This document shows, one piece after another, positions 42,681 through 45,190 of a DNA stretch of 64,000 nt. The stretch is from Pseudomonadota bacterium. Lineage in GTDB: Bacteria; Pseudomonadota; Alphaproteobacteria; Rhodobacterales; Rhodobacteraceae. Every line of letters begins with the position of its first letter. Within the stretch, counting starts at the first letter, position 1. Position numbers and translations under genes: made by a program. The notes beneath the pieces are model-generated. The model was not told where the DNA came from. It ran no database searches and was given only the letters and a program-made list of their open reading frames with translations. The DNA lies in contig JAIUPC010000017.1 in assembly GCA_020161655.1 (NCBI GenBank), forward strand, positions 248,001 to 312,000, given 5' to 3'.

Positions 42681-43184
42681 TCAGCCGTTCTCGCCGGTAC
42701 TCTCACCCTCGCCCATCAGGGTCGCGATCTCTGCCCCGAGGCGCAATTCCTGCACCTGACCGACGTGATGCGCCCTGAGCCGTCCGATGCGGTCGATCAG
42801 GATCAGGCTCGGCGTGCCGCGCATCCGGTAGCGTTCCATCGTGACCGGCATTGCGCCGCTGCCGGCTTCGTCGACCCCGACGGGAAAGGTCACCCGGTAC
42901 TCGTACAGGAAGGCTTCGAGCGAGATGGGCGTCATCGCCGCGTGATGCTCAAAGACCGTGTGGAGGCCAATGACCGCGACCTTTTCCGGCGGGAAAAGCC
43001 GGTGGACGCCTTGGGCCAGCGGCAGGCCATGCGACACGCAGCCGGGGCAGAGCATCTGGAACGCCTCGATCAAAACCACCCGGCCGCGCAAGGATGCGAG
43101 GGTCAGCGGCACATCGGTATTGAACCACTGGCTGACCGACCATTCCGGCGCGAGCGGGGGTATGTCGGGGCGTTCCATGTCCAT
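42681..43184 (-). CDS. Thioredoxin-like (peroxiredoxin/TlpA-type) protein
   Basis: 167 residues, no signal peptide. A thioredoxin fold with the redox motif MLCPGCVSHGLPLAQG (CPGC), a cis-Pro region RMRGTPSLILIDRIGRL, and an inserted helix as in AhpC/TlpA relatives. Probably a cytoplasmic thiol oxidoreductase. It starts 8 nt after the stop of the secreted-protein gene on the same strand, so the two form an operon facing the MarR regulator. Confidence 0.82.
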   Translation of the reverse strand: MDMERPDIPPLAPEWSVSQWFNTDVPLTLASLRGRVVLIEAFQMLCPGCVSHGLPLAQGVHRLFPPEKVAVIGLHTVFEHHAAMTPISLEAFLYEYRVTFPVGVDEAGSGAMPVTMERYRMRGTPSLILIDRIGRLRAHHVGQVQELRLGAEIATLMGEGESTGENG

Positions 43185-43192
43185 TGCCTTTG

Positions 43193-43903
43193 TTATTCAG
43201 CCGTGCCGGGCAGGCTGAGGTCGCCTGAGGCTACGTCGAAAACATCCGTGACGCAAAGCAAGGGCGCATGGAGGTTGGCATTGACGCGCAGCGCTGCCGT
43301 CACGCCGTCGAACTTCACCTCGCCCATGTCGGCCATCTCCACGTCGACCGTGATCGTGTCACCTCCAAGCTGCGGCACAAAGCCGGGGCTGTCGATGAAA
43401 AGCGGCAGGCCGGGCCAGGTCTTTGGCAGCTTCGGGCTCTCGCCTTCGGGGATGTCGCGCACGGCGAGCGCGCCGGGGCCGCAGGCCTCATCCGGTCGCA
43501 GCACAACCCAATGGCTGTGCCACTTGTCGCCATCATTGGCCAGATCGCCGTCGCCATCCTCGTCGTACAGCGGCGTGTCGTCGAAATCGGGATGCCTTGT
43601 GGCGGCAAGGGCAAGGATGCCCGATCCCGCCTCGAACCCCGCCGCTTCGGGGTCGAGCGACAGCGGCCAGACATAGGCATGGACCGCCGCGCCTTCGAGC
43701 TTGCCGACCTTTTCCGGCTCAAGGGTGCCGGCCTCGCCCAGCGTCTGCATGCGGAAACGGAGGCCGCTGGTCGTGCGACTGACCTCGGCGGCGAGGATGT
43801 CGTAGGGGGCTGCGACCTCCGGCTTTTCCGGCGAGGCGACGGGGGCAGCTGCTGCCGGAAGGGCGAGCAGAAGGGCGATGATAAGGGAAAGCTGTCTTGG
43901 CAT
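43193..43903 (-). CDS. Secreted periplasmic protein of unknown function
   Basis: 236 residues from ATG 43903, with AGGAGA upstream and a clean signal peptide (LIIALLLALPAAAAPVA). The mature protein is beta-rich, with an acidic DEDGDGDLANDGDKWHSHW loop near residue 125 that resembles a calcium-binding stretch next to two His. It has two isolated cysteines (EACGPG, LLCVTD). No family recognised. It is the first gene of a two-gene unit with the thioredoxin-like protein, transcribed away from the marR gene across an inverted-repeat operator. Confidence 0.7.
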   Translation of the reverse strand: MPRQLSLIIALLLALPAAAAPVASPEKPEVAAPYDILAAEVSRTTSGLRFRMQTLGEAGTLEPEKVGKLEGAAVHAYVWPLSLDPEAAGFEAGSGILALAATRHPDFDDTPLYDEDGDGDLANDGDKWHSHWVVLRPDEACGPGALAVRDIPEGESPKLPKTWPGLPLFIDSPGFVPQLGGDTITVDVEMADMGEVKFDGVTAALRVNANLHAPLLCVTDVFDVASGDLSLPGTAE

Positions 43904-43926
43904 GGGGAGTCTCCTCTGAATGGGGT

Positions 43927-43981
43927 CAATTGATAGCGATTCGATATTATTGTCAAAATGATTTTGACTCGCTATCAATTG
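43927..43981. promoter_or_regulatory. Divergent operator/promoter with 13-bp inverted repeat
   Basis: CAATTGATAGCGA (43927-43939) is the exact reverse complement of TCGCTATCAATTG (43969-43981). Between them lies a 17-bp palindrome GTCAAAATGATTTTGAC (43952-43968). The patch is strikingly AT-rich. TTGTCA-17-TATCAA can serve marR, and the minus strand carries a consensus TTGACA. Likely autoregulatory binding sites for the adjacent MarR protein. Confidence 0.7.
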
Positions 43982-43997
43982 GCGAGGAGGAGGCCCC

Positions 43998-44525
43998 GTG
44001 ACCGAAGACGAGGAAATCGCCGAACTCATGGACCGCATCGCGCGGCTGCACGGCGCGCGCCGGCGCTCGGCCGCGCTGCCGGAGGCGCAGGTGGCGGCCC
44101 TCGACTATCTCGCCCGCGCCAACCGCTTCTCGCGCACGCCCTCGGCGGTGGCGGACTACCTTGCGGCCACGCGCGGCACGGTGTCGCAGACGCTGATCGC
44201 GCTGGCGCGGAAGGGCCTCGTGACCGACGATCCCGCGCCGGACGACCGCCGCAGCCGCATCTACAGCCTGACGGCTGAAGGCCGGACCGAGATCGGCGGC
44301 ACCGGGACCGGCCCCGACTGGGGCGGTGCGAAGACCGAACTTCTTTCCGGTCTCAGGGCCGCGCTCGCCGTGATGATCCGCGATGCGGGCGGGCGCAGCT
44401 TCGGCCTCTGCCGCACCTGCCGCCATCACCGGCCGGGCGAAGATGGCGCGTTGTGCGCCCTTCTCGGCGTGGCATTGGTTGCGGCCGAGGCCGACCAGAT
44501 CTGCGCCGAACATCAGGCCTCCTGA
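43998..44525 (+). CDS. MarR-family regulator with C-terminal four-cysteine tail
   Basis: 175 residues from GTG 43998, with GGAGGAGG upstream. A winged helix (about 30-95) with SAVADYLAATRGTVSQTLIAL as the recognition region and DDRRSRIYSLT as the wing. All four cysteines are in the last 38 residues: Cys138, Cys141, Cys153 and Cys169 (C-x2-C-x11-C-x15-C), plus nearby His143, His144 and His172. This could bind zinc or an Fe-S cluster, or form disulfides. The operator repeat lies directly upstream. Controlled genes are probably itself and the divergent secreted/thioredoxin pair. Confidence 0.82.
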   Translation: MTEDEEIAELMDRIARLHGARRRSAALPEAQVAALDYLARANRFSRTPSAVADYLAATRGTVSQTLIALARKGLVTDDPAPDDRRSRIYSLTAEGRTEIGGTGTGPDWGGAKTELLSGLRAALAVMIRDAGGRSFGLCRTCRHHRPGEDGALCALLGVALVAAEADQICAEHQAS

Positions 44526-44674: not shown

Positions 44675-45190
44675 ATGAAGAACAAGGTTTTCGCCATCAT
44701 TCTGGGCGTCCTATCCATTGTCGCGGGTATTTTCTGCCTCATCAATCCGCTCGCAGGCTCGCTCGCCAGCACGCTTATCGCCGGCTGGTCCTTCCTGATC
44801 CTCGGTGCGATCCAGCTTTTCGTCGCCTTCCGGGAAACCGGCTGGGGCTCGCGCATCTGGGCGCTTCTGCTTGGCATTCTTGGCGTTCTGGCCGGGATCA
44901 GCCTGCTCAGCAATCCGCTTGAGGGCGTGCTGACGCTGACGGTCATCCTCGGCGTTCTCTTCCTCGTGACCGGCATCATGAAGTTCGTCGCGGGCTTTGC
45001 GCTGCCCTCGGGCAACCTCAAGCTCATGGTCATCATCTCCGGCGCGATCTCCGCACTTCTCGGCCTGATGATCCTGTCGGATTTCCCCGGCTCTGCCGTG
45101 GTGACGCTGGGGGTGCTGTTGGGAGTTGAGCTGATCGCCGACGGCATCGCGGTTCTCGGGCTGGCCAACGCCGGCCGCTCGCGCGCGTAA
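44675..45190 (+). CDS. HdeD-family membrane protein
   Basis: 171 residues from ATG 44675 with AGGGGA upstream. Six hydrophobic helices in three similar pairs (IILGVLSIVAGIFCLINP, LLLGILGVLAGISLLSNP, IISGAISALLGLMILSDF) match the HdeD/DUF308 repeat family. HdeD in E. coli aids acid resistance at high cell density; the role here is unproven. It is the last gene of the insertion between pdxJ and acpS. Confidence 0.85.
   Translation: MKNKVFAIILGVLSIVAGIFCLINPLAGSLASTLIAGWSFLILGAIQLFVAFRETGWGSRIWALLLGILGVLAGISLLSNPLEGVLTLTVILGVLFLVTGIMKFVAGFALPSGNLKLMVIISGAISALLGLMILSDFPGSAVVTLGVLLGVELIADGIAVLGLANAGRSRA

Follow-up and report, generated by a model that had tools for sequence, protein, structure and literature searches.

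The window, a 64,000-nucleotide stretch of a chromosomal contig from a genome of 4.08 Mb, contains a gene for a MarR-family winged-helix regulator (MARR) facing a divergent operon that encodes a protein with a signal-peptide-like N terminus (SEC) and a thioredoxin-like protein (TRX) (Table 1). The open reading frames (ORFs) of all three are confirmed at the positions given in the first-pass annotation of this DNA; neighbourhood ORFs came from a small in-house gene caller and are approximate. TRX, SEC, and MARR are bracketed by pdxJ on one side and by a DUF308 gene and then acpS on the other, pdxJ and acpS being the names that we take these flanking genes to have. The closest named relative found, the metagenome-derived Rhodobacteraceae bacterium UBA6273, has the same gene order, with 88-98% protein identity over TRX, SEC, MARR, and the DUF308 protein. 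The DUF308 gene, which encodes an HdeD-like membrane protein, lies downstream of MARR at window positions 44675-45190. It is kept in locus L031 and was not found in L034 and L037, though SEC-MarR occupies the same pdxJ-acpS site there.

Table 1 Features of the SEC-MARR locus, in window coordinates.
Feature	Position	Strand	Description
TRX	42681-43184	-	167 aa, CPGC; starts 8 bases past the SEC stop; second gene of the SEC operon
SEC	43193-43903	-	236 aa; signal-peptide-like N terminus (by eye); acidic DEDGDGDLANDGD loop
Operator O1	43934-43946	.	TAGCGATTCGATA; 12/12 consensus positions; predicted site
Candidate MARR promoter	43950-43978	+	TTGTCA-17-TATCAA; overlaps O2; by eye, weak
Operator O2	43962-43974	.	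TTTTGACTCGCTA; 10/12 consensus positions, 28 bp from O1; predicted site
MARR	43998-44525	+	175 aa, GTG start; divergent from SEC; MarR-family winged-helix regulator
Four-cysteine tail codons	44409-44504	+	C138 to C169 of MARR

MARR exceeds the curated Pfam cut-offs for MarR_2 (31.2 bits, cut-off 27) and HTH_27 (31.6 bits, cut-off 22.2), which places it in the MarR winged-helix family, and it scores below the cut-off for PF01047 MarR (17.4 bits, cut-off 24.6). Its only cysteines, C138, C141, C153, and C169, form a C-terminal cluster (C-x2-C-x11-C-x15-C) with H143, H144, and H172 close by, an arrangement that the first-pass annotation had described and that the ORF translation bears out. The same annotation had named cysteine conservation among orthologues as a check on its proposal, and each of the four tail columns is cysteine in 43 of 43 aligned rows (MARR from the window and 42 relatives gathered by whole-protein similarity), where the L072 row is a fragment and the fourth cysteine of L062 comes from an insertion at an apparently broken end. 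Among 11 more diverse plasmid MarR proteins, C138 and C141 are kept in all 11, and C153 and C169 in all save a short annotated Lelliottia ORF. The four-cysteine tail also occurs in SEC-linked MarR proteins from Deinococcus and Bacteroidota. Across 29 diverse tails, which were picked by the motif, the four cysteines are the only invariant positions, and the histidine beside a tail cysteine is conserved. A PDB search with the tail gave no relative, and resemblances to library families were weak and all to zinc ribbons (DZR_2 in 2 of the 29 members, best E 0.0014). AlphaFold models made with three sequences, with pLDDT values of 50 and 39, were too poor to use.

The genes for the four-cysteine MarR and SEC are found together in both gene content and position. 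An SEC profile matched 23 of 394 genomes of the family, and MARR as bait, with eight candidates scored per genome, retrieved 22 close relatives in 21 of the 394 genomes (E <= 2.4e-30, a cut-off set at a visible gap, with the next value at 1.7e-23). Close MarR relatives are thus present in 21/23 SEC genomes and in 0/371 others (Fisher p 6.9e-33, calculated over related genomes that nearly all come from different genera). The two SEC genomes lacking one are G162, where a longer four-cysteine MarR adjoins SEC, and G263, where SEC is on a 5.1-kb contig without a four-cysteine MarR. At the level of loci, a four-cysteine MarR adjoins SEC in 22 of the family's 24 SEC loci, the part of the gene linkage proposed at first pass that is conserved; in G323 SEC and MarR are at contig ends. 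Outside the family, the 12 SEC genomes of a 398-genome phylum sample have 13 SEC loci, 10 with a four-cysteine MarR within 3 kb and three (L107, L112, and L115) with none detected in that distance. An initial tail scan found a four-cysteine MarR near SEC in 20/26 loci. In the fuller count, one lies within 3 kb in 44 of 52 SEC loci, with the motif in six other ORFs over 673,758 bases, and the remaining eight loci, which include the three from outside the family, have no detectable four-cysteine MarR within 3 kb. Because 22 of the 52 loci were fetched with MARR as the bait, the fair figure is 22 of 30 SEC-anchored loci. Pairwise distances of MARR and SEC correlate over 22 loci (r 0.63, a value reached by 0 of 2000 permutations), and SEC is the more conserved protein in 231/231 pairs, with a mean identity of 66% versus 48%.

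The gap between SEC and MARR contains a perfect 13-bp inverted repeat (CAATTGATAGCGA/TCGCTATCAATTG) surrounding GTCAAAAT/ATTTTGAC. This region had been read as a single elaborate operator. Conserved sites are indeed paired here, and they are two separate predicted operators rather than one large palindrome: the unit conserved in relatives is a 13-bp pseudo-palindrome, TAKCGA-N-TCGMTA, in two copies. At least two copies occur in 22/22 SEC-MarR gaps (match >=10/12), with 46 sites in total at this threshold, versus a mean of 0.95 and a maximum of 3 in 100 dinucleotide shuffles. The site centres are 28 bp apart in 11 of the 22 gaps, including that of the window, and mostly 39-57 bp apart in the rest. 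The operator pair is conserved and nearly exclusive to SEC-MarR. In the window's own genome, a degenerate 15-mer built to match O1 and O2 occurs at the SEC-MARR gap only (control, 0), and in ten relatives a strict 13-mer matches 11 distinct places, 10 of them inside SEC-MarR gaps, with three of the ten relatives having no strict match and a reversed-pattern control in the same ten matching 7 places. Even Leisingera SEC genes with no adjoining MarR have two operators, and one such Leisingera plasmid carries a four-cysteine MarR, a MOSC gene, and one operator away from SEC. Regulators of the MarR family bind palindromes close to their own gene, and the paired conserved sites are candidates for such binding. 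Lying between divergent genes and a short distance from each start, the two sites are placed in a way compatible with simple repression in both directions. A consensus scan gave other, overlapping hexamers, so the MARR promoter is uncertain.

SEC has no match in Pfam, NCBIfam, or the PDB, and a Pfam search with nine diverse members of its family returned only PL28, at E 0.32 for one of the nine. Eight residues, H104, D106, D109, W128, H129, H131, W132, and D171, are retained in 51-52 of the 52 SEC loci, and the core signature is HxDxxD...WHxHW, in which the combination of HxDxxD and HxH suggests a putative metal site. Of the 52 loci, 50 have both C141 and C217 and the other two have neither, and being jointly kept or jointly lost is the pattern expected of a disulfide. 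The acidic DxDxDG-like loop emphasized in the first-pass annotation is present in SEC of the window, but it is not a core feature: D116/D118 are deleted in 6 of the 52 loci while HxDxxD...WHxHW is kept, and we therefore rejected an EF-hand-like loop as the functional core.

TRX scores just under the Pfam cut-off for AhpC-TSA (E 2.6e-5, 24.6 bits, cut-off 26) and below that for Redoxin (20.2 bits, cut-off 26.6). It strongly matches the thioredoxin-like structures 3eyt (E 1.7e-70) and 3lor and, judged by its sequence, looks like a cytoplasmic thioredoxin-fold redoxin with a CPGC motif. TRX homologues are present in 11/23 SEC genomes versus 6/371 others (p 1.8e-11). They lie beside SEC in 8 of the 24 family SEC loci and away from it in three more of the 23 genomes, and TRX is absent from the locus in the same-genus genome G010. 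Among all 52 SEC loci a TRX homologue is found in 22, with CPGC in 21 and CPAC in one. The secreted and thioredoxin-like proteins, presented at first pass as a pair within a three-gene module, share an operon in the window but are not a fixed unit, and only the MarR-SEC part of the module is conserved. TRX is an accessory partner outside this core, as are the genes for the HTHP heme protein, glutaredoxin, and MOSC proteins. Within 3 kb of the 52 SEC loci, MOSC genes occur at 14, glutaredoxin at 6, HTHP at 5, and catalase at 4 (the MOSC, glutaredoxin-like, and catalase figures are raw counts at SEC loci), and at many loci none of the redox genes queried falls in this distance. No consistent pathway emerged from the wider neighbourhood (88 proteins, 13 loci) among the best 25 of 111 families. 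A general nitrosative-stress role, raised by two plasmid loci, is supported neither by this neighbour tally nor by the 52-locus count. DUF2024 genes are near SEC in 6/52 loci (L109, L114, L116, L117, L077, and L078).

The full version of the operon is found on the megaplasmid of Ruegeria pomeroyi DSS-3 (L158 3626-7064), where MOSC-MarR faces SEC-HTHP-TRX-MOSC, with two operators 28 bp apart; the window operon differs in having no HTHP. The HTHP of R. pomeroyi is identical to the chain in PDB 2oyy and its TRX (SPOA0173) to 3eyt, so that two proteins whose structures were solved singly are the products of adjacent genes in one operon. According to the available portion of PMC4813847, R. pomeroyi HTHP binds heme through a tyrosine and reduces peroxide on electrodes. 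HTHP is encoded in 15/35 SEC genomes versus 1/14 control genomes, which were unmatched by lineage, and in G009 it adjoins TRX with both away from SEC. The tags SPOA0168-0174, inferred from the number of SPOA0173 except for that tag itself, appear in no paper searched.

Related four-cysteine MarR proteins also occur without SEC. These sister regulators (L053-L061 and L063-L071) have the same tail and the same type of site, found at a raw match count of >=9/12 in 18/18 loci. At 10 of the 18 loci the regulator gene is opposite a sigma-32-type gene, and at 10 it has genes for Mrp/NUBPL and NfuA-like Fe-S carriers downstream; one or other arrangement is seen at 17/18, and the neighbour identities come from one representative of each. 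Control of a heat-shock-type sigma factor may be a so far unrecognised role of the sister proteins, whose arrangement has no match in the literature searched. In longer four-cysteine MarR proteins from Rhizobiaceae, Deinococcus, and others, TAKCGA-N-TCGMTA is absent and TAGGA-N-TCCTA is found instead, in 12/16 promoter regions at >=8/10 against an expectation of 0.055 per region (L073, L075, L076, L080, L083, L084, L086, and L111 are such loci). This division of sites by MarR type indicates two related operator dialects.

Three known proteins combine a winged helix with cysteine-ligated iron and provide precedents, in the available portions of their sources, for an Fe-S cluster on a cysteine tail of this kind. 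ArnR of Corynebacterium is a MarR/ArsR-like winged-helix protein with C-terminal cysteines, like MARR; it binds a [4Fe-4S] cluster, represses hmp, loses DNA binding with NO, and is reported almost only in Actinobacteria (PMC12343034). It has three conserved cysteines (179, 193, and 223) with no C-x2-C, whereas MARR has four and faces other targets (PMC12343034). SufR/Rv1460, a winged-helix repressor encoded near Fe-S genes, ligates its cluster through C-terminal Cys 203, 216, and 244 and controls the suf operon, unlike MARR with its C-x2-C-x11-C-x15-C tail and SEC operon (PMC6034842); MARR, with four cysteines, therefore departs from the ArnR/SufR pattern of three C-terminal cysteines spaced by ~x13 and x27-29. 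In archaeal TFE-beta/hRPC39, a MarR-type winged helix precedes a four-cysteine [4Fe-4S] domain, but this protein is a basal transcription factor and the spacing of Cys 92, 95, 101, and 112 is unlike that in MARR (PMC4495717).

Thiol-sensing MarR proteins of the OhrR/DUF24 type carry the sensing cysteine in the N-terminal half, whereas MARR has no cysteine outside its tail. Like the proposed function of MARR, that of these proteins, such as YodB, is repression of redox-defence genes, as described in part in PMC8063818. In the literature searched, which mostly did not reach subscription papers, there is no description of the MarR-SEC module, in agreement with the first-pass statement that no described system of this composition is known. 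Apparently, then, a bacterial MarR-SEC switch is undescribed.

We consider it somewhat probable that MARR is a dedicated, autoregulated, redox-responsive repressor that controls an oxidant-defence SEC operon. In this model, a MARR dimer would bind the two 13-bp sites between marR and SEC and repress both directions, its own gene and SEC. The four-cysteine tail would hold a redox-sensitive cofactor, most likely an Fe-S cluster, and oxidation or loss of the cofactor on exposure to peroxide, NO, or a similar oxidant would release MARR from the DNA and allow the SEC operon to be made. Its products would be the exported, probably metal-binding and protective SEC together with accessory thiol-redox or peroxide-handling proteins, which would be TRX in the window and HTHP, glutaredoxin, or MOSC proteins at other loci. 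The Fe-S carrier genes beside the sister regulators favour Fe-S as the cofactor, and we judge this identity slightly likelier than all others combined.

A different use of the tail, as a zinc site in which oxidation of zinc-bound thiolates alters DNA binding, is unlikely but deserves weight: the tail weakly resembles zinc ribbons, a histidine next to a cysteine is conserved, and the thiol-redox partners thioredoxin and glutaredoxin adjoin SEC, but the Fe-S carrier genes after the sister regulators argue against such a thiol switch. Rather unlikely, too, is that MARR senses nitric oxide specifically, in the manner of ArnR. Besides the ArnR precedent, this reading would account for Hmp, protoglobin, and an Rrf2 regulator near Hymenobacter SEC, for NnrS, hemerythrin, truncated hemoglobin, and nitronate monooxygenase in Defluviimonas, and for a P460-like gene in L041. 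However, few of the 52 SEC loci have such genes (NnrS 1, P460 1, and globin 3), of the three Hmp matches those in L046 and L079 probably represent a PDR/VanB oxidoreductase, the annotation given in L079, and no such gene is among the best 25 of 111 neighbourhood families. MarR proteins often bind ligands, and a purely structural zinc knob, with a small molecule sensed in the usual MarR pocket, would be compatible with that habit; four-cysteine zinc sites can be structural, as with the non-sensing site of PerR in the available portion of PMC8063818. We regard this as decidedly unlikely, since the neighbours that recur over three phyla are redox rather than catabolic and the Fe-S carrier linkage of the sister regulators would be left unexplained. 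A chance layout, in which SEC and TRX happen to lie next to a MarR gene within a housekeeping cluster and have no connection with it, finds an argument in the G010 locus without TRX. It is extremely improbable and, for MarR-SEC, already contradicted by the co-occurrence statistics, the shared operator, and a linkage that holds in different phyla and in genomic surroundings that are otherwise unrelated.

The repressor model for MARR gives an exported family with no Pfam entry a testable role and assigns two solved structures that had been orphans, those of HTHP (2oyy) and the redoxin (3eyt), to one regulated operon. It also proposes, as a subclass, regulators with a conserved tail that is shared by marine alphaproteobacteria, Deinococcus, and Bacteroidota. 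If the tail holds an Fe-S cluster, the MarR family would, in a form absent from the literature searched, join the Fe-S redox switches of bacteria. More tentatively, and with doubt outweighing belief, these regulators may constitute a new MarR class, in at least three phyla and with two operator dialects, that senses oxidants or NO through a C-terminal four-cysteine Fe-S cluster, each member controlling a new exported oxidant-defence metalloprotein and the sister branch a heat-shock-type sigma factor and Fe-S carriers.

Four-cysteine MarR genes were also seen in other settings. On an IncHI2A plasmid of Enterobacter hormaechei (L081 3650-4558), one faces a glutaredoxin-domain gene and is preceded by an operator of the TAKCGA-N-TCGMTA type, a perfect TATCGATTCGATA, in a stretch with no SEC match annotated. 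On a Polaromonas plasmid (L082 1874-4591), one is divergent to the gene for aconitate hydratase, an Fe-S enzyme, and an aconitase-family gene is near MarR in L119 as well.
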